A stretch of DNA of 56,195 nucleotides from a candidate division TA06 bacterium SM23_40. Its GTDB lineage: Bacteria > LJUI01 > SM1-40. Below are positions 3,376 to 12,618 of the stretch, piece after piece. The position numbers were made by a program, and so were the translations under genes. Location of the stretch: the NCBI GenBank assembly GCA_001303705.1, contig LJUI01000003.1:1-56195 (forward strand), written 5' to 3'. The notes below the pieces were generated by a model, which saw only the letters and a list, made by a program, of their open reading frames with translations, was not told where the DNA came from and did no database searches. Each line of letters opens with the position of its first letter. Positions within the stretch are counted from its first letter, which is position 1.

Positions 3376-5280
3376 CTACGGCACTACAGTGAAGACGAAC
3401 CTCTGTCTATCAATCACCTTATCCGGCGGCCGGCCTATCGTGACCTCGTACACATAGTCGCCGAGCGGCGCCGCACCAGGGATCTGATGAGTCATGTGCC
3501 GCTCCACGGTTCCCTGCGGCCCCACTGTCACCCGCTCGGGACCAACAAGCGGATTGCCCGCGAAATAGACACCACCCGGCAACGAAACCTCGCTGATGCC
3601 GTAGAAGGTCTGGCTCTGGTCGAGGTTGCTGGCGAGAGTGGCCGTAAATCCGAGCGTCCCTCCCCGTGGAACCGTTGTCGCGTCCGGAACGAGATCGAGA
3701 GCGATTGTCGGCCACGTGATCACAACATCATCAACATACCAGCCCTCATCGATGACCCCCGAGTCGCTATCCATCCGGAATCGCACGCGCACCGCCACGC
3801 TCCCGAATGCCGACAGGTCATAGATGTGGGCGGCGAATCCATCACTGTACCCATTGACGGAGCCTATCTTCGTCCAGCTGGAATCCGGCCCGTCAGCTAC
3901 CTCGATATACCCGTAGTCGTACCCGCTTTCGAGGGCGTACCACTGCCAGACATGGAGCTCGCCCCCCGAGGGCACGGTGACGAGCGGACTCACGAGTGAG
4001 GCATCCATATTGTTGAGATACTGCCAGTTCATCTGGTTTCCGCAGTACCAGCTCGTGTTCGGCGTGTGGACACGGTGGTCAGTCTGATCCCAGTAGTCGA
4101 GCATCCCGCCATGCGTCCATCCGCCAACGCCGCCCTCCATGTTATCGAACAATCCCGCCGTGTTATCGACCGTCACCCAGAACGAATCGGCGACTGCGTA
4201 CTCCTCTCCGCTGATATCCAGGTCCAGCATCGCCGAGTGCGGCTGGGGCGTGCCAGCAGCTACCTGAAGCACATACGGATTCAACGACGGAACCGTCATG
4301 TAGGGTTCGATATCTCCGAAGTCCGCGCTGTCCGTGGGGATGCTGATGTAAGGATCACCCGTCGAAAGGATCGCCGCGACCGAGTGCGCGGCGGCGTTCC
4401 CGGTGTTCTTGAGCGACACGGTGAGACCCACAATTTCACCCGGCTCCGCTATTCCGTTCCCGTTTCCACCGGGCCCGTCGTCGACCGATCGGCCCACAAA
4501 CTCCAACCGCGGTATCGGATTGATCCACGCCATCCCGGTCTGAAGAACTTCTCGATTCCCATCCATAAGCGTTGGATCGCTCTGCACGAATACGACCACC
4601 GCACACCAGTGATCGTCCCAAGTGTGCGCGATCGTGAACGGCTGTGATAAGTTGAGGGTGTCACCCTGTGCGATCGTGATCGGCTCTCCCGTCGCATCCG
4701 GGATCATATCCCGCATTACCTGATTGTGTATCTTCTCACCGTTAGGAGCATTGAATGGTATCTCCGACTCAGTGATGACCCACCGGACACGAAGATCGCC
4801 ATGGGTGATCGGTTGAGTGGCAACGATCTGAGCGTAGACAGTGCCTGCCATGCTCAGACTGTCGTACTCTACTGTGACCTCGATCGACAGCGGGCTTTCC
4901 TCCTCCGCCCGCACAGTAACAAGCGAATCCCATTCAGCAGGAGCGCCATTGCCGTCAACGATGCCGTCAATCCACAGATACGGAACGTAGTTGAAGACGT
5001 AGTAGTTCTTCCGGGCGGTGTTCTCGGGAATGTTGGCCTGATAGAAAGGGTCGCCCGAGCTCGGCCACCAGACGTGATACCTGATCACGGTGAGTTGCTC
5101 GTGACGTGCCTCGGCGATTTCGTCCAGCGTACCGCTGGCGCCTGCACACCCTCCTCACCCGGTATTGGTGAACATCTCGGCCAACACCATCCGCTGTGTC
5201 GCGTCCGCCGGCGCCACGGAGGCCAACAGGCAGGCCGCAAGGACCGCCAGCACTGCACAGGCCGGTCCAATCTCTCTCAT
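3376..5280 (-). CDS. Omp28/thioredoxin-like secreted selenoprotein (in-frame TGA = Sec42)
   Basis: The product is 634 aa if TGA 5157-5155 is read as selenocysteine. ATG 5280 has GGGAGGG 8 nt upstream and opens a clear signal peptide (cleavage near ADA, residue 27). Then comes EMFTNTG-U-GGC: Sec42 and Cys45 form UxxC at the position of the CxxC of Omp28-type thioredoxin folds. The same frame continues with family-typical sequence (IRYHVWWP, DPFY.AN, YYVFNYVP, WIDG). Later parts are a CARDB-like domain after NGNGIAEPGE (about 265-370), a jelly-roll region (about 380-525) and a C-terminal module shared with the protein at 36-2045. A bacterial-SECIS-like hairpin begins 16 nt after the TGA. Reading only from GTG 5088 would remove the signal peptide and redox motif, so that shorter frame is very unlikely to be the gene. 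Substrate unknown; an extracytoplasmic thiol/disulfide or peroxide function is inferred. Confidence 0.85.
5124..5157 (-). promoter_or_regulatory. UGA plus bacterial SECIS-like hairpin
   Basis: Counting the U of UGA (5157) as 1, CCAGC (20-24) pairs with GCTGG (30-34), leaving the apical loop GGUAC with G26-U27; a G-C pair can close it further. E. coli fdhF has its critical G23-U24 at almost the same distance. In plus coordinates the hairpin is 5124-5138. Confidence 0.75.
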
Positions 5281-5638: not shown

Positions 5639-6433
5639 CTAGCCCTGTCCCGTCCGATCGCGCACCGACAGCCCTTCCCAGATATTGAGGAGAAAAGCGA
5701 TGTTCCCGACGAGGTACCGTCTCCACAGATTACGTGGATCGCTGAAAAGCCGGAAAACCCATTCCAGCCCGAGATCGACGAGCAGCGCCGGACGACGCCA
5801 GCCTCCAGTACTCAGATAAGCAAAGACACCGCCGACACACCAGACCACAGGGGAATCCATCCGCGGGGAATTCGCTGCCACCCACTTCTCCTGGTATGGC
5901 ACCCCGAGACCTACGAGGACGATATCCGCACGGGAACGGGCGATCAGATCAGCGACGTTCTCTCCCTCTTCAGGGGAGAAGAATCCGTGGTGGGTTCCCT
6001 TCACCTCGAGCCCGGGGATTTCCTCAGTGAGTATTTGCGCAGCCGCTTCTGCAACGCCGGGCTCACTCCCGAGGAGGAAAAGACTTACCCTCTCTGCAGC
6101 AAAGCGACGACAGAAATCGACCAGAGACGCCGTAGCCGTTACTCTGGCCGGCAACGCAACTCCGGCCAACCTGGCCCCCCATACAACACCGACCCCGTCG
6201 GCATAGACGAGGTCGGCCTCTCGCAGAATTCGTCTGTATTCGCTATCGCGCCACGCTAGCCGCATACAGTGGGCATTCACGTACATAACCTGATGGTGGT
6301 TCCCATCTCTGACGTACCCCATAAGCCGCCGATAGAGATCCTCGGTCGCAATGGCATCCACCTCCACTCCGAGAAAGTCTACTCTTTTGTTCCTCGTCTC
6401 GCTGTCCTCCTCGAAGCCTTGGTGTATGAGCAT
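5639..6433 (-). CDS. WecG/TagA/CpsF-family glycosyltransferase
   Basis: The product is 264 aa, usual for GT26 enzymes, which transfer N-acetylmannosamine(-uronate) or similar sugars onto lipid-linked precursors of teichoic acid, enterobacterial common antigen or exopolysaccharide. Family features in order are DFLGVEVDA at the start, YVNAHCMRLA, ADLVYADGVGVVW (catalytic Asp region), LFLLGSEPGVA, VGLGVPYQEKW and the GGVFAYLSTG segment, then a basic C terminus (RLFSDPRNLWRRY) thought to aid membrane contact. It is the last gene of a four-gene operon, 18 nt after the radical SAM gene. Confidence 0.93.
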   Translation of the reverse strand: MLIHQGFEEDSETRNKRVDFLGVEVDAIATEDLYRRLMGYVRDGNHHQVMYVNAHCMRLAWRDSEYRRILREADLVYADGVGVVWGARLAGVALPARVTATASLVDFCRRFAAERVSLFLLGSEPGVAEAAAQILTEEIPGLEVKGTHHGFFSPEEGENVADLIARSRADIVLVGLGVPYQEKWVAANSPRMDSPVVWCVGGVFAYLSTGGWRRPALLVDLGLEWVFRLFSDPRNLWRRYLVGNIAFLLNIWEGLSVRDRTGQG

Positions 6434-6451
6434 GAGACGCCCGCATGCGCG

Positions 6452-7987
6452 TCAGTCTGTATCCTCTCCGTGTCTCGCGAAATCGAGCAGGTGGCCGATG
6501 ACGGCCTTCGTTCCGCGAGCCACATAAGACAGATCTTCCACGCTTCTGATGCTCGTCAGGTGCCGCCACACGAACCTGGGCGCGAAGAAGCTCTGATAGA
6601 TCCCACCGCACATCTTCATCACTTCATCGGGTTCCATATCAGGAGTTTTCAACACAGGCTCTGACATGTCGTAGCGACTGTATTCCATCGGGTCGAATCG
6701 AAACCAGCCGTTCTCGATGGCCTGCTGATGGAGGGGAGTTCCTGGATAAGGGACGACGACAGTCGACTGGAGCATCTCGGCATGACCGCGGCTCATCAGT
6801 CGTCTCGCCAGTGCCAACGTGCGCTCGGCATCCTGCCTCGTTTCCCAGGGATAGCCCACCATTATCGTCAGATGAATGTCGATCCCTGCCTCACTCAGGA
6901 ACTTGCTCTCTTCTTCGATCTGCTGCACAGTGACGTTCTTGTCGATCCGGTCGAGCGTGGCCTGATTCCCGGACTCCAGTCCCATCTTCAGTTTCCGGAA
7001 TCCCGCCCGTCCCATCAACTTCACGAGATCAGGCTTGAGGTAGCCGTAGCGCATGTTGGCAGAAAAAAGAATCTCTTTGTCGAGACCGCGCTCGATCATC
7101 CCCTCACAGAACTTCTTGAGCCACCCCCCTGCGGGAAACGTGCCGGTATCATCGAATACCTCACGCGCTCCGTACTCTCGGATGAGCATCTCGATCTCGT
7201 CGAGGAGACTCTCGGGCGTACGCGTGCGGAAGCGGGGATAGAGTGTCGTCCACGAACAGAACGAGCACCGTGCCCAGGGGCAGTCTCGACCTACCATAGT
7301 ATAGAGAAACGGCTCGCGCTTCTTCCATTTCTCTCCATAGAGATGCGATTTGGTCAGCCTTCTATCGATGAATGGCAGTTGATTCAGATCATAGGTGAGC
7401 TCGAAGCGACCTGTGTCCTTGATCTCGCCATCCCCTCGATACCAGAGACCCTTGGGGAGCTCCTCCCCGTCGCGAATGTGCTTCGCAACCGCCACCACGC
7501 AGAGGTCGAAGTCCCCACCGGTGATGATGTAGTCGACCTTGCACTGTTCCATTGATTCACGCGGCAGCGCCGTAACGTGGTCGCCCACCAGGACCACTCT
7601 GCACGTTGGCTGCCGCTCTTTGAGTTGGTCGATGATCTTCCAGTGCTGCTCTACGACGGGGGTCTTCGTCTCGAGGACGATCAAGCCGGGCTTCTCGGCG
7701 TCCACATATGAAAAGAATTGATCTATCGTCCATCCCTCGGCTATGCAATCGTTCCACAATACATCGAAGCCTTCCTGCTGCAGCAGGGTCGCCGCCATCG
7801 CAGGGACGAGAGGGTATATGAACGACGGCACATGAAACCACTGGAATTGCCGGTTCTGGCCGAGCGTGGCGATTCCCTTCCCTTTGAGCGGGGGGTACCC
7901 GATCAGGACTCTAATCGCACTCACCCCCCTCTGAAGTCGAGGATTTGCCGGAGAGGGGTCCCGGCACCCTCTCTGTAACCGTCTCAT
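6452..7987 (-). CDS. B12-binding-type radical SAM protein
   Basis: The product is about 511 aa. Residues about 25-165 form a Rossmann-like cobalamin-binding-type domain (RVLIGYPPLKG start). The radical SAM domain carries C236-x4-C241-x2-C244 (DCPWARCSFC); the CX4CX2C spacing is one longer than the standard CX3CX2C. ATG 7987 has GGGGAAGG about 10 nt upstream, but homology-like sequence begins only near GTG 7924, so the first 21 residues may not be translated. Members methylate or rearrange unactivated carbons; no substrate can be assigned. It sits between DUF362-ferredoxin and WecG genes with 18-nt gaps, suggesting modification of a lipid or glycan, with electrons perhaps from the neighbouring ferredoxin-like protein. 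Confidence 0.9.
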   Translation of the reverse strand: MRRLQRGCRDPSPANPRLQRGVSAIRVLIGYPPLKGKGIATLGQNRQFQWFHVPSFIYPLVPAMAATLLQQEGFDVLWNDCIAEGWTIDQFFSYVDAEKPGLIVLETKTPVVEQHWKIIDQLKERQPTCRVVLVGDHVTALPRESMEQCKVDYIITGGDFDLCVVAVAKHIRDGEELPKGLWYRGDGEIKDTGRFELTYDLNQLPFIDRRLTKSHLYGEKWKKREPFLYTMVGRDCPWARCSFCSWTTLYPRFRTRTPESLLDEIEMLIREYGAREVFDDTGTFPAGGWLKKFCEGMIERGLDKEILFSANMRYGYLKPDLVKLMGRAGFRKLKMGLESGNQATLDRIDKNVTVQQIEEESKFLSEAGIDIHLTIMVGYPWETRQDAERTLALARRLMSRGHAEMLQSTVVVPYPGTPLHQQAIENGWFRFDPMEYSRYDMSEPVLKTPDMEPDEVMKMCGGIYQSFFAPRFVWRHLTSIRSVEDLSYVARGTKAVIGHLLDFARHGEDTD

Positions 7988-8005
7988 TCATGCTCTGCCT
8001 TCCCC

Positions 8006-9241
8006 TCATAGAGAGCGAATCATCGCTCCATATCGATCGATCTGGCGCTCGAGAAAGCCGAGTTCTCCTTCCAGGTGGATCGCCTCGCTCGGACACACAA
8101 AGTAGCAGTACAGACACCCGATGCACTCGACCCCGGAGAGGGCGCCCTCACATGTGGGATCGAGTCCGACGGGACAGATCTCCCGGCAGCGACCGCTCCC
8201 CTCACATCGGCCTGCGTCGAACCTGAGCGTCACACTGGCATCTCGCTCGTCGTAGATATCCTGGATCAGCCCCGCTTTGTATAGCAGGTTCATCGCGATC
8301 CGCGTGGAATGTATCGGGCGAAGTAGATCCTTCGGTCTGTTGAAGACCGGGTGCGACAGAACCTCTGCGAGTCGGGTCTTCGGAGGTGGTTTCTCCAGCA
8401 GCCAGCCCCTCGGTATATCCGCCAGGGCCTCCACATCTCCACTTCCTAAATAACCCTTCTCCAGAGATCGCGCAAGAAACCTCACCTGCTGCGGTTCGTA
8501 CCCCACCAGGTGCGACACGACAAGATCCACTGCGAGCGCATCCGTCCCCGCGAGAATCGCGTCGAGTCGCTTCGGGGTACCATCTCCCGGGCCATTCCCC
8601 TCCATCGCCACGAGCCCGTCCACTATGTGGAGGTGCGGCTTCACGAGCTCGTACAGGCGAACAAGGTTGCCCGTCAGATCCCGATGGAGCGCCTTCTTAG
8701 AAGCCCGACCGACGAGACAGCCGACCATATTCTTGACCGCACAACTCATATCAGCATCGGAATGCATTTTGATCTTGGGTAGACTGATGCACAGATCGGC
8801 ATCAGAGCATATCTCGGCTATCAGTGCGGGATGGCCATCGGCGAAGGTGATCTGGCGACCCGGAGCGCGGTTCAGGTCGAGCGTTCTCGCGCCGAACCGT
8901 GCCGCGAGGCGGTCGATCCGGAGCCGCCCGATGACGTCGATCCCCCGCCGCAACACCCCGACATTGCAGCCGTCAGCTATGACAATATTACTATAGCCTC
9001 GCTCGACGAGCGAAGTAAGCACTGCCGCCATGAGCCGGAGATCGGTCGAGTTACCCATGAGAGAGTTGAGGTCGCTATTGAGATTAGGCTTGATAAGAAT
9101 CAATGCCTCACGGGAATCGGGAAGGAGTGTACTGTGAGCGGCCAGCATTCGGTCCACAGCTTCCCACAACTCCCGCCGTGTGGGAGTCCTGAAGACCGAG
9201 ACCTCGCCTTTTTCCAGAGTGTACGTGTGGGACCCCATCAT
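8006..9241 (-). CDS. DUF362 protein with C-terminal ferredoxin domain
   Basis: The product is 411 aa. Residues about 40-280 are a DUF362 domain (ALILIKPNLN, IVIADG, ISLPKIKMHSD, AVKNMVGC, HIVDGLVAMEGNGP). The last 70 residues hold two Cys clusters, CEGSGRCREICP and CIGCLYCYFVCP, expected to bind two iron-sulfur clusters (the first has a spacing variant). The biochemical function of DUF362 proteins is not settled; such fusions are seen in anaerobes and may deliver electrons. It lies 22 nt after the GT4 gene and 18 nt before the radical SAM gene, so it is probably the redox partner in this operon. Confidence 0.9.
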   Translation of the reverse strand: MMGSHTYTLEKGEVSVFRTPTRRELWEAVDRMLAAHSTLLPDSREALILIKPNLNSDLNSLMGNSTDLRLMAAVLTSLVERGYSNIVIADGCNVGVLRRGIDVIGRLRIDRLAARFGARTLDLNRAPGRQITFADGHPALIAEICSDADLCISLPKIKMHSDADMSCAVKNMVGCLVGRASKKALHRDLTGNLVRLYELVKPHLHIVDGLVAMEGNGPGDGTPKRLDAILAGTDALAVDLVVSHLVGYEPQQVRFLARSLEKGYLGSGDVEALADIPRGWLLEKPPPKTRLAEVLSHPVFNRPKDLLRPIHSTRIAMNLLYKAGLIQDIYDERDASVTLRFDAGRCEGSGRCREICPVGLDPTCEGALSGVECIGCLYCYFVCPSEAIHLEGELGFLERQIDRYGAMIRSL

Positions 9242-9263
9242 GTCACTCTCCAGGGGAACAGGA

Positions 9264-10457
9264 CTACCCCCGGTTTCCCCGGCGTCTCAGCGCCATCCGA
9301 TAGACGTTCTGCAGGCCTTCGTAGTGGAACTGGGCTGCGTACCTGGTCTCTGCCACGTCTCTGGCGTTGCGTCCCATCGCCTTCCGCTGACCTGGGTCGG
9401 CGGCAAGGCGCGCCATCTTCTCGGCAAGCTCCTCGACATTCCCCGGCTCGAAGAGATAACCGGTGCTACCATCTTCGACGACCTCCGCAAGGGCTCCCAC
9501 GCGGGAGGCGATCACCGGCTTCCCCAGAGCGTAGGTTTCAATCACGCTTAATCCAAATGTCTCGTAGAATTCAGAGGGTGCAACCACAAACATGGCTCCG
9601 CCCAACAGTTCTTTCACCCGGTCTCCGGGGACCTGTCCGCAGAATTCGACATTTCTGGCCCCATGTCTGGAGGCAAGCTCAGTCAAGGATCCTTTCAGAG
9701 GGCCATCCCCCACCAGGATGAAGCGAATATCCGGTACCAAGCTCGCTGCTCTGATGAGCGTCCCCACACCCTTGGTCTCGGCAAGCCTCCCGACATAGGC
9801 AACGTATCCATCGCTCACGTCGCTCACCGATCGATGCACTTCCAGATCCGTGAAGTGCGGGACTACACAGATCCGTTCTGGCGGTACGCCCCAGGAGACG
9901 AGCTTGCGGAGAAGGAATCTACTCGGTGTGATGAAGACATCGATCTGCTTCAGAAACAGATCGGATAGATCGCTTATGTAGCAGATAATCGCATGGAGCA
10001 GGCTCTCATCAATGCGATCATTGACACACCTGAGCGATACCGCGTGATAGTAATGCCCGCCACAGCAGCGTTCGCAGATCTTACCACGGACAAAGAGATC
10101 TCTCCCCGGGCACCGCAGGTGAAAGTCATGGACCGTCATTACCGTGGGAAGATCTAGCCTGCGTAATTCGTCCAACACCGAGAGAGAGAGAAGTGGAAAG
10201 AGGTTGTGCAGATGAACAACGTCTGGTTGCCAGGTGTCGACAAGGCGGGCAATCGTCTGCTTCGAACCGCTGGAGTAGATAGCTTGTAGGAAATATTTCG
10301 ACCGTGACATGAGGCCCGTCGGCCGGATCTCCTTGCTGTCGACATAGAACGGCCGGACGTCGTGACCTCTCGATCGGAGCAGCCGAATCTGATCGCGGCA
10401 GTACCGCTCTTGGCCGCCTTCCAGGCGCAATCGATTGTGAGAGACAAGTATCTTCGT
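9264..10457 (-). CDS. GT4-family glycosyltransferase, apparent ACG start
   Basis: The product is about 397 aa. It has a GT-B fold: N-terminal acceptor domain (KILVSHNRLRLEGGQERYC, DVVHLHNLFPLLS), C-terminal nucleotide-sugar domain (YVGRLAETKGV, LVGDGP, E-x7-E site with SEFYETFGLSVIE). Nearest ATG/GTG/TTG start is TTG 10430, which would lose the conserved KILVSHNR strand. Reading upstream in frame gives ACG 10457 with AGGTGA 6 nt before it (10469-10464) and a stop at 10466. ACG differs from ATG by one base, so this is a rare start codon, a recent mutation or a sequence error. First gene of the glycan operon; a terminator-like hairpin directly precedes the ribosome site. Confidence 0.88.
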   Translation of the reverse strand, partial: TKILVSHNRLRLEGGQERYCRDQIRLLRSRGHDVRPFYVDSKEIRPTGLMSRSKYFLQAIYSSGSKQTIARLVDTWQPDVVHLHNLFPLLSLSVLDELRRLDLPTVMTVHDFHLRCPGRDLFVRGKICERCCGGHYYHAVSLRCVNDRIDESLLHAIICYISDLSDLFLKQIDVFITPSRFLLRKLVSWGVPPERICVVPHFTDLEVHRSVSDVSDGYVAYVGRLAETKGVGTLIRAASLVPDIRFILVGDGPLKGSLTELASRHGARNVEFCGQVPGDRVKELLGGAMFVVAPSEFYETFGLSVIETYALGKPVIASRVGALAEVVEDGSTGYLFEPGNVEELAEKMARLAADPGQRKAMGRNARDVAETRYAAQFHYEGLQNVYRMALRRRGNRG

Positions 10458-10817
10458 CTTCGATCACCTAACTAGAAAGAGGCTGTGAGAGAGCAGACCC
10501 TCACAGCCTCGACTCACTGGTCAGCCTCGGTGAATAGCAAGAAGATCATCATGCTGACCGTTGTCATGAGCGGCTGGCTCGAGTCGTCCTCTCGGCATGT
10601 CCTGGACCCACCGTCCTCGACTGCCCTCGAGCCCCCCTCTAATACACCTCTCCCCCCGAACACACTCAAGACAACAGTGCGATGGGATATACCCATCGGC
10701 GCTGTCCGAGCCTCTACGTCGCCATGAACAACCCCCGAGATCGGGAGATCGCTCTCATGGCTCGGATGGTGGGCACGGCCAGCGGCCCGAACCTACCCGT
10801 ACACGTATCCTGGATAG
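10458..10817 (-). other. long leader region upstream of the glycan operon
   Basis: A promoter at 10818-10846 would transcribe about 350 nt before the GT4 start. The stretch contains a 60-codon frame (10514-10696) ending with a hydrophobic segment, without a ribosome site, and a terminator-like hairpin directly after it. It may be a separate short transcript or a regulated leader. Upstream at 10847-11037 there is only an imperfect direct repeat (GCAAAATGGGA / GCAAAATAGGA near 10850-10884) and no gene. Confidence 0.4.
10471..10510 (-). terminator. rho-independent-type terminator or attenuator
   Basis: A perfect 11-bp stem GAGGCTGTGAG (10479-10489) / CTCACAGCCTC (10500-10510) with a 10-nt loop. 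On the minus strand it is followed by TTTCTAGTT. It ends just before the ribosome site of the GT4 gene. Confidence 0.65.
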
Positions 10818-10846
10818 ATACTACGCGCCTGCCACTGGTTTGTCAA
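10818..10846 (-). promoter_or_regulatory. sigma70-type promoter
   Basis: On the minus strand, TTGACA (10846-10841), 17 bp, TAGTAT (10823-10818). It reads toward the GT4 operon. Confidence 0.6.
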
Positions 10847-11037
10847 GGGCAAAATGGGACAGATATCAAGGCAAAATAGGAGAGAAGGGCTGCACCTCAA
10901 CACTCGGGACTCCTGGCGGCCGATAGCAGCCGGCCACGACGTCCACTGATGCACTGAGCTGACGCCCCCGCAGAGCTGGAATAGTCTTATGCCTACTCGG
11001 CACCTGTCAGACGCTAGTCTCCTAGGTACGGCCTCTT

Positions 11038-12618
11038 TCAGCTATCCAGAATTCTGTCAGCTTCTTCCTTATCGCAGTCCATCACGTGCGGAATGCCGCT
11101 CACAGCTTCTGCCTCACGGGTGAGCGAGGCGATGTCCGTCCGGTCAAGGTATCCCAACGAGAACTTTCTCGCCCCGCACATCAGCTGTCTCAGGCCCTGT
11201 TCGAGTCGCCTCATGTAGGTGTAGAGCCCGATCGCCCCCGAAGGGATCCTGTCGAAATCTTTGCCGAATCTGCGCCTCAGTTCCGGCGCCGTGACGAATA
11301 TCTCCTCTCTCGTCCTGCCGAACCGTTCCACATAGACGGGGACTTGGGCATTGTCGATTGCCTTGCCGATATTCTTACCCACCATGCATGCAGCCAGTGG
11401 ACCGCGCGCCATACCTATCAGCTTGGTGTAGGGAGCACCCAGGGCCAGGCCCTTGAAGAGGTGGTCCTCCAGTATGAATCCGCCGGCGAACGCCACATCT
11501 GGAACATACTTGCCCTTCTTGGCAAGCCTGTCCACATACTGATAGGTGAGGGACCAGAGTTCAACTCCGGGAACACCCCATTCGCACATCATCCGCCACG
11601 GGCTCATACCCGTCCCGCCCCCTGCGCCATCGACCGTCAGCAGGTCGATCTTAGCCTCGGAGGCACACTTCACCGCAAGAGCGAGATCGCGCGGCCTGTA
11701 CGCACCCGTCTTGAGCGTGACATACCTCGCTCCAGCCTTCCGCAACTCCTCCGCTCTCTTGAAGAACGCTTCCTGATTTACCATACCAATTCTCGAGTGG
11801 CGCTCGAATTCGTGGAAGACGTGACGCTCGAACGCCTCGATCACACTCTCGTTGTACGGATCGGGCAGAACGACATATCCTCTGTCTTTTAGCATCTGGG
11901 CGCGCTTCAGATCCTTGATCTTCACCTCGCCGCCGATGTCCTTCGCGCCCTGACCCCATTTCAGCTCCACCACCTGAACGCCCAGCTTCTCGATCGCATA
12001 TTCCTGCACGCCGAGCCTCGTGTCCTCGACATTTGCCTGCAGGACAACGGCCCCGTACCCATCTTGCTGCCAGTCGGTGTACAGCCTCACGCGCTGCTCG
12101 AGCTGTGGCGACCGCACCACTCTCCCATTCTTGAGCTCCGTCTCCGGATCCATCCCGCAGATATTCTCGCCGATCGTGAGGATAATCCCGGAGAGCGCTG
12201 CGCCCGCTGCCAGTCCTTCCCAGTTATTCTTGGCTATCAGTGTGGAGCCGAGCCCGGGAACGACCATCGGCAGCCGGACCTTGATCCCCTGATCGTGGCC
12301 GATCGTCTGCTCCAGGCTCACGTTAGGAAAGATCGCCTTATCGGGATCGGCCTCCGTTCCATAGGCCCCAACACAGGAGCCGAGGATGGTAAAATGGGAC
12401 AAATCCACCGGATACTGCTTCTCACTCGCGGCAGTTATGATACCGAAAGGCTGAGGATAAATGGCCTCAACGCCCCGGTATGCAGACTTGCCGATCTCAC
12501 ACATCCCGATGCATCCATCCACACACGTGACACACATGCCGCTTATTGGGACAATGGAATCTTCTGTCCTGTTCTTCGTCAACGTCGCGGCTGTCGCGTT
12601 CGTCCTCGTCAGACTCAC
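11038..12618 (-). CDS. FMN-binding glutamate-synthase-domain protein
   Basis: The product is 526 aa from GTG 12618, with GGAGG 6 nt upstream. A Cys cluster C29-x2-C32-x3-C36-x3-C40 opens the protein and could hold an Fe-S cluster. The remainder is the FMN-binding alpha/beta barrel of glutamate synthase (PMVVPGLGST, KWGQGAKDIGGEVK, DGAGGGTGMSP). The amidotransferase and GXGXG domains of full-size GltB are absent, as in short archaeal-type proteins. It is the last gene behind NuoE-, NuoF- and NuoG'-like genes and divergent from glutamate dehydrogenase, so it may couple NAD(P)H and ferredoxin to a glutamate-type or other flavin reaction. True substrate unknown. Confidence 0.88.
   Translation of the reverse strand: MSLTRTNATAATLTKNRTEDSIVPISGMCVTCVDGCIGMCEIGKSAYRGVEAIYPQPFGIITAASEKQYPVDLSHFTILGSCVGAYGTEADPDKAIFPNVSLEQTIGHDQGIKVRLPMVVPGLGSTLIAKNNWEGLAAGAALSGIILTIGENICGMDPETELKNGRVVRSPQLEQRVRLYTDWQQDGYGAVVLQANVEDTRLGVQEYAIEKLGVQVVELKWGQGAKDIGGEVKIKDLKRAQMLKDRGYVVLPDPYNESVIEAFERHVFHEFERHSRIGMVNQEAFFKRAEELRKAGARYVTLKTGAYRPRDLALAVKCASEAKIDLLTVDGAGGGTGMSPWRMMCEWGVPGVELWSLTYQYVDRLAKKGKYVPDVAFAGGFILEDHLFKGLALGAPYTKLIGMARGPLAACMVGKNIGKAIDNAQVPVYVERFGRTREEIFVTAPELRRRFGKDFDRIPSGAIGLYTYMRRLEQGLRQLMCGARKFSLGYLDRTDIASLTREAEAVSGIPHVMDCDKEEADRILDS

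Follow-up and report, generated by a model that had tools for sequence, protein, structure and literature searches.

On its minus strand, contig LJUI01000003.1 of candidate division TA06 bacterium SM23_40 (assembly GCA_001303705.1) carries an Omp28-type gene at 5280-3376 whose in-frame TGA at residue 42 is, as comparison of sequences indicates, almost certainly a selenocysteine codon; positions are those of the window, the whole 56,195-nucleotide stretch analysed (contig positions 1 to 56,195, forward strand). The explanation that, taken whole, we hold with great confidence is an exported UxxC selenoprotein of thioredoxin fold, decoded through SelB and a bSECIS element and likely acting as an oxidoreductase.

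Reading frame and translation signals

The reading frame starts with an ATG at 5280 and contains a single in-frame TGA, at 5157-5155, beyond which 592 sense codons lead to the stop TAG at 3378-3376. With the TGA read as selenocysteine the gene encodes 634 residues, and in a Pfam search the protein scored 47.1 bits against PF11551 (Omp28), above the gathering cut-off of 34.9. The original prediction had placed the TGA in the motif TNTG-U-GGC, in a frame open for almost 600 codons past it and preceded by a ribosome site and a signal peptide. Coordinates, motif and the length of the open frame were all borne out, and the two upstream elements were found in frame as the ribosome-binding site GGGAGGG (5295-5289), 8 nt before the ATG, and a predicted signal peptide of residues 1-28 (5280-5197), which forms a hydrophobic N-terminal helix in both sequence and model. 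Residue 42 is the first position of the UxxC motif, in which the putative resolving Cys45 is encoded at 5148-5146. The motif lies in the Omp28 unit, residues 29-252 (5196-4525), a thioredoxin fold plus a beta-sandwich according to AlphaFold2 and Foldseek, and this unit is followed by a MAM-like beta-sandwich domain (PF20773, residues 424-522, 4011-3715; E 6.3e-7, 29.5 bits, cut-off 26.9).

Upstream of the gene, the minus-strand neighbours at 5639-12618 encode a WecG-type glycosyltransferase, a B12-binding radical SAM protein, a DUF362 ferredoxin protein, a group 1 glycosyltransferase and a glutamate-synthase-like protein; this part of the window is possibly a surface polysaccharide region.

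The hairpin and the active-site column

A hairpin with a GU loop had been predicted 16 nt after the TGA. We found its stem, CCAGCG-GUA-CGCUGG (5138-5124), to begin at exactly this distance, with the loop starting after 22 nt and a weaker extension that pairs as far as 5149-5106. The published bSECIS model asks for a loop of 3-9 nt with G in its first two positions, a stem of 4-16 bp, a distance of 16-37 nt from the UGA and an MFE at or below -7.5 kcal/mol (PMC13188914), and the hairpin, with its loop GUA, 6 bp, 22 nt and -7.9 kcal/mol, agrees with it on every count. The paralogues on contigs C58 and C38 of the same genome have the hairpin likewise at 22 nt, with compensatory pairs. A second group of hairpins, with six members drawn from four genomes, carries its AGUU loop at a constant distance of 34 nt, and in this group all 36 of 36 pair cells are formed while three pairs are altered on both sides. 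When related sequences are counted as independent, 33/36 TGA members versus 19/78 Cys members have a suitably spaced hairpin whose first two loop bases include a G, and 16/36 versus 4/78 have one stronger than 95% of its synonymous recodings. The gene's own hairpin is marginal against such recodings (0.052-0.076), the surrounding 76-nt stretch has an ordinary fold (z = -0.37), and Rfam gave no match above gathering scores in the window. The evidence for the element thus appears to lie in position, loop and covariation rather than in a global fold.

To collect homologues we looked for the Omp28 domain in 145 whole genomes, the relatives among them sharing no more than the taxonomic domain with the source organism, and in named genome contigs. 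For the latter the query was a 10-row alignment; a 41-row version was too diverse for searching, and the single protein used as query gave no match among the named contigs. In the alignment of 47 whole-genome matches the TGA column held 22 U, 23 C, 1 M and 1 N; a Cys followed three residues later in 46. Addition of 76 named loci brought the alignment to 123, a few of the named ones (L077, L080, L082, L119) duplicating whole-genome matches, and the column to 38 U, 80 C and 5 other, with the second Cys of the motif kept in 119. The expectation that the TGA stands in place of the first Cys of an Omp28-type CxxC, which was to be checked by alignment with Cys-containing homologues, was therefore upheld: the TGA aligns with Cys, and 118/123 homologues have either Cys or Sec there. 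Only in two places of the whole alignment does a TGA fall outside the active-site column, once as a UxxC displaced by two residues (genome G134) and once far downstream (G006). The displaced motif, GCGUAAC, at locus L066 (G134:C176), has another Cys before it. Among 41 sequences E35, C/U42, R90 and P100 are invariant.

The source genome itself holds Sec paralogues on C124, C58, C38 and C19 together with Cys paralogues on C121 and C5. On a quick tree of 112 rows, with duplicates, fragments and the trait column left out, parsimony required a minimum of 21 changes between Sec and not-Sec, a figure that is rough because many forks of the tree are weak; well-supported pairs, C34/C63 of genome G030 for example, display a Sec/Cys swap directly. 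Sec and Cys thus seem to have been exchanged repeatedly within the Omp28-type family. One further locus, L055 (G104:C186:34495-44257), contains five tandem Omp28 genes, of Sec and Cys type and one with Asn at this position. Cys-type homologues also occur at L097, L103, L105, L106, L108, L110, L111 and L113, on contigs labelled Thermoplasmata, Methanomassiliicoccales and other archaea.

Selenocysteine machinery, fold and competing explanations

The source assembly (2.88 Mb, about 90% complete) encodes a tRNA-Sec with anticodon UCA (77.7 bits) as well as SelB (391.9 bits), SelA (557.9 bits) and SelD (374.4 bits), each above its cut-off. All four genes that the original prediction proposed to look for, selA, selB, selC and selD, are therefore present, among them selB and selC, whose absence would speak against a selenoprotein. 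SelD is itself of the Sec type, with its own in-frame TGA. Contig C5 has SelA and SelB side by side; on C58 (L048, G000:C58, 183-2551) the tRNA-Sec, the Sec-type selD and an Omp28-U gene stand in a row; downstream of this trio lies an ORF with a T9SS/FlgD-like NYPNPF C-terminal domain. In another genome (L158, G103:C1:9116-10870) the gene directly after selD is an Omp28 gene of the Cys type whose signal looks lipobox-like, and the two possibly form one operon. Of the genomes whose Omp28 match bears a TGA, 16/16 had SelA above cut-off, versus 50/129 of the others (Fisher 1e-6); the TGA was confirmed in the active-site column by alignment for 13 of the 16 and, for the remaining three (G001, G025, G120), lies inside the NF045500-search match, its column unconfirmed. 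The SelA match of G103, which belongs to these 13, contains stop codons of its own (2 TGA and 1 TAG). Reassignment of the genetic code was considered and rejected, because TGA terminates ordinary genes in the source genome.

An AlphaFold2 model of residues 1-255 (mean pLDDT 92.5) predicted, with high confidence, a thioredoxin fold in which the UxxC motif opens the first core helix, followed by a beta-sandwich; in our reading P100 would occupy the cis-proline place of thioredoxins. Whereas a PDB sequence search with the protein returned insignificant thioredoxin matches only, Foldseek gave as top PDB match HBP35 (5y1a; E 1.3e-14, TM 0.75), followed by DUF1223 and Omp28. HBP35 has measured thioredoxin activity, reducing insulin via C48/C51, and its C-terminal domain serves transport (PMC2907840). 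Given the fold, the motif and the match to an insulin-reducing protein, we infer a secreted thiol/selenol-disulfide oxidoreductase as the most likely role.

Taken together, we propose that the bSECIS hairpin, its loop beginning 22 nt downstream of the UGA, would direct SelB with Sec-tRNA-Sec (UCA) to decode codon 42, as sequence and covariation suggest. The signal peptide would lead to export of a protein in which a thioredoxin domain is joined to a beta-sandwich. At its UxxC site, predicted to face the conserved Pro100, Sec42 would attack and Cys45 would resolve. The protein would most likely act, as in the case of HBP35, as a thiol/selenol-disulfide oxidoreductase in what we infer to be its location, the periplasm or the cell surface, and its sorting or anchoring is probably the task of the lineage-specific C-terminal domain.

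Two explanations dispense with selenium altogether, and we consider both very improbable. If the TGA were a true stop, owing to a sequencing error or to decay of the gene, a shortened protein would begin at the GTG at 5088, and translation with Table 11 does yield a 570-aa ORF from that point. Such a start would, however, cost the signal peptide, the ribosome site and the first thioredoxin strand. It would also fail to account for 592 codons without a further stop, for a hairpin that is present and covarying, and for a TGA that recurs in the same active-site column at 38 loci spread over many lineages, as well as in four paralogues within the source genome. Alternatively, the UGA might be read through with some other residue inserted, perhaps Trp or Cys from a near-cognate tRNA, a process that generally needs no SECIS; against this hardly credible reading stand the complete Sec machinery, the occurrence of SelA in every genome with a TGA-bearing Omp28, and the normal use of TGA as a stop elsewhere in the source genome. 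Decoding of the UGA at 5157-5155 as selenocysteine is, on these sequence comparisons, very well supported.

A different question is what the selenoprotein would do. Instead of general disulfide exchange it could serve selenium metabolism, for example by reducing oxidised selenium compounds in the envelope to feed SelD. Such a function is suggested by three Omp28-family genes, from two genomes, that have selD or selA no more than 1 kb away (the Sec gene on C58 and the Cys gene on C5 of the source genome G000, and the Cys gene on C1 of G103), where 0.12 were expected (Poisson p = 2e-4, the 1 kb having been chosen post hoc), and by a TA06 MAG with a Sec copy upstream of selA. Yet these are a handful of cases, Cys forms account for two of the three nearby genes, and most Omp28 copies, including the gene at 5280-3376, are located away from sel genes; we regard this function as unlikely, and disulfide exchange remains our preferred reading.

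Known relatives and wider occurrence

The original prediction knew of no earlier description of an Omp28-like selenoprotein, and on this point alone it did not hold, though the score of the present protein lies far below the cut-off of the known family. GOS_C, an Omp28-related UxxC selenoprotein, was reported with 74 Sec sequences in a 2008 ocean survey (PMC2398784). A review lists NF045500 as GOS_C, UxxC (PMC13188914), and the NCBIfam name of NF045500 is Omp28-related selenoprotein; in the collection of papers that we searched, none names Omp28 together with selenoproteins. The two families have in common a UxxC in a thioredoxin-like fold, relatedness to Omp28 and Sec with Cys homologues. Region 30-267 of NF045500 aligns with residues 21-252 here, and the model is weakly matched by 38/41 members of the present family. 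They differ in that our protein adds the MAM-like and C-terminal domains and scores 38.9 bits against a curated cut-off of 200, a gap that argues for a separate branch; none of the 145 genomes searched gave a match above that cut-off. By sequence, the protein belongs to the same superfamily as NF045500 but falls outside the curated equivalog, and it appears as a well-supported addition to the Omp28-related selenoproteins known since 2008.

Among structural relatives, the Omp28 lipoproteins of Bacteroidota (PF11551; PDB 2r2c) share the same beta-sandwich, together with the score above gathering, whereas our protein has Sec for Cys, other C-terminal domains and no lipobox seen in its signal peptide. 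HBP35 of Porphyromonas gingivalis resembles it in fold, N-terminal thioredoxin motif, export and possession of a C-terminal domain, but has Cys instead of Sec, 15% identity and a different C-terminal domain, and is itself a hemin-binding T9SS cargo. DUF1223 (PF06764; PDB 2axo) has the same overall fold, at a score of 30.4, just under the Pfam cut-off of 30.7.

The C-terminal domain of about 105 aa (3702-3379) gave no match in a Pfam search, and the last 108 residues find 95 matching places in the source genome, with a copy also at 123-434 of the window, on the minus strand. In 38/38 inspected copies the domain stops 0-5 residues short of the stop codon, and it may act as a sorting or anchoring signal for an undescribed pathway of export or anchoring. 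That exported Omp28-type UxxC proteins form a large, Sec/Cys-switching envelope redox class tied to selenium metabolism and displayed via an undescribed secretion route marked by this domain is a speculative extension, which we think doubtful.

Use of selenium in Omp28-type proteins would be much wider than the curated family. Forms with an in-frame TGA occur in at least 13 whole genomes, including the source, and also in named MAGs of Zixibacteria, Gemmatimonadota, Marinimicrobia, TA06, Acidobacteria and Planctomycetes; standard annotation would shorten them. Because Sec and Cys copies are found together in one genome, the advantage of Sec over Cys may be tested there.
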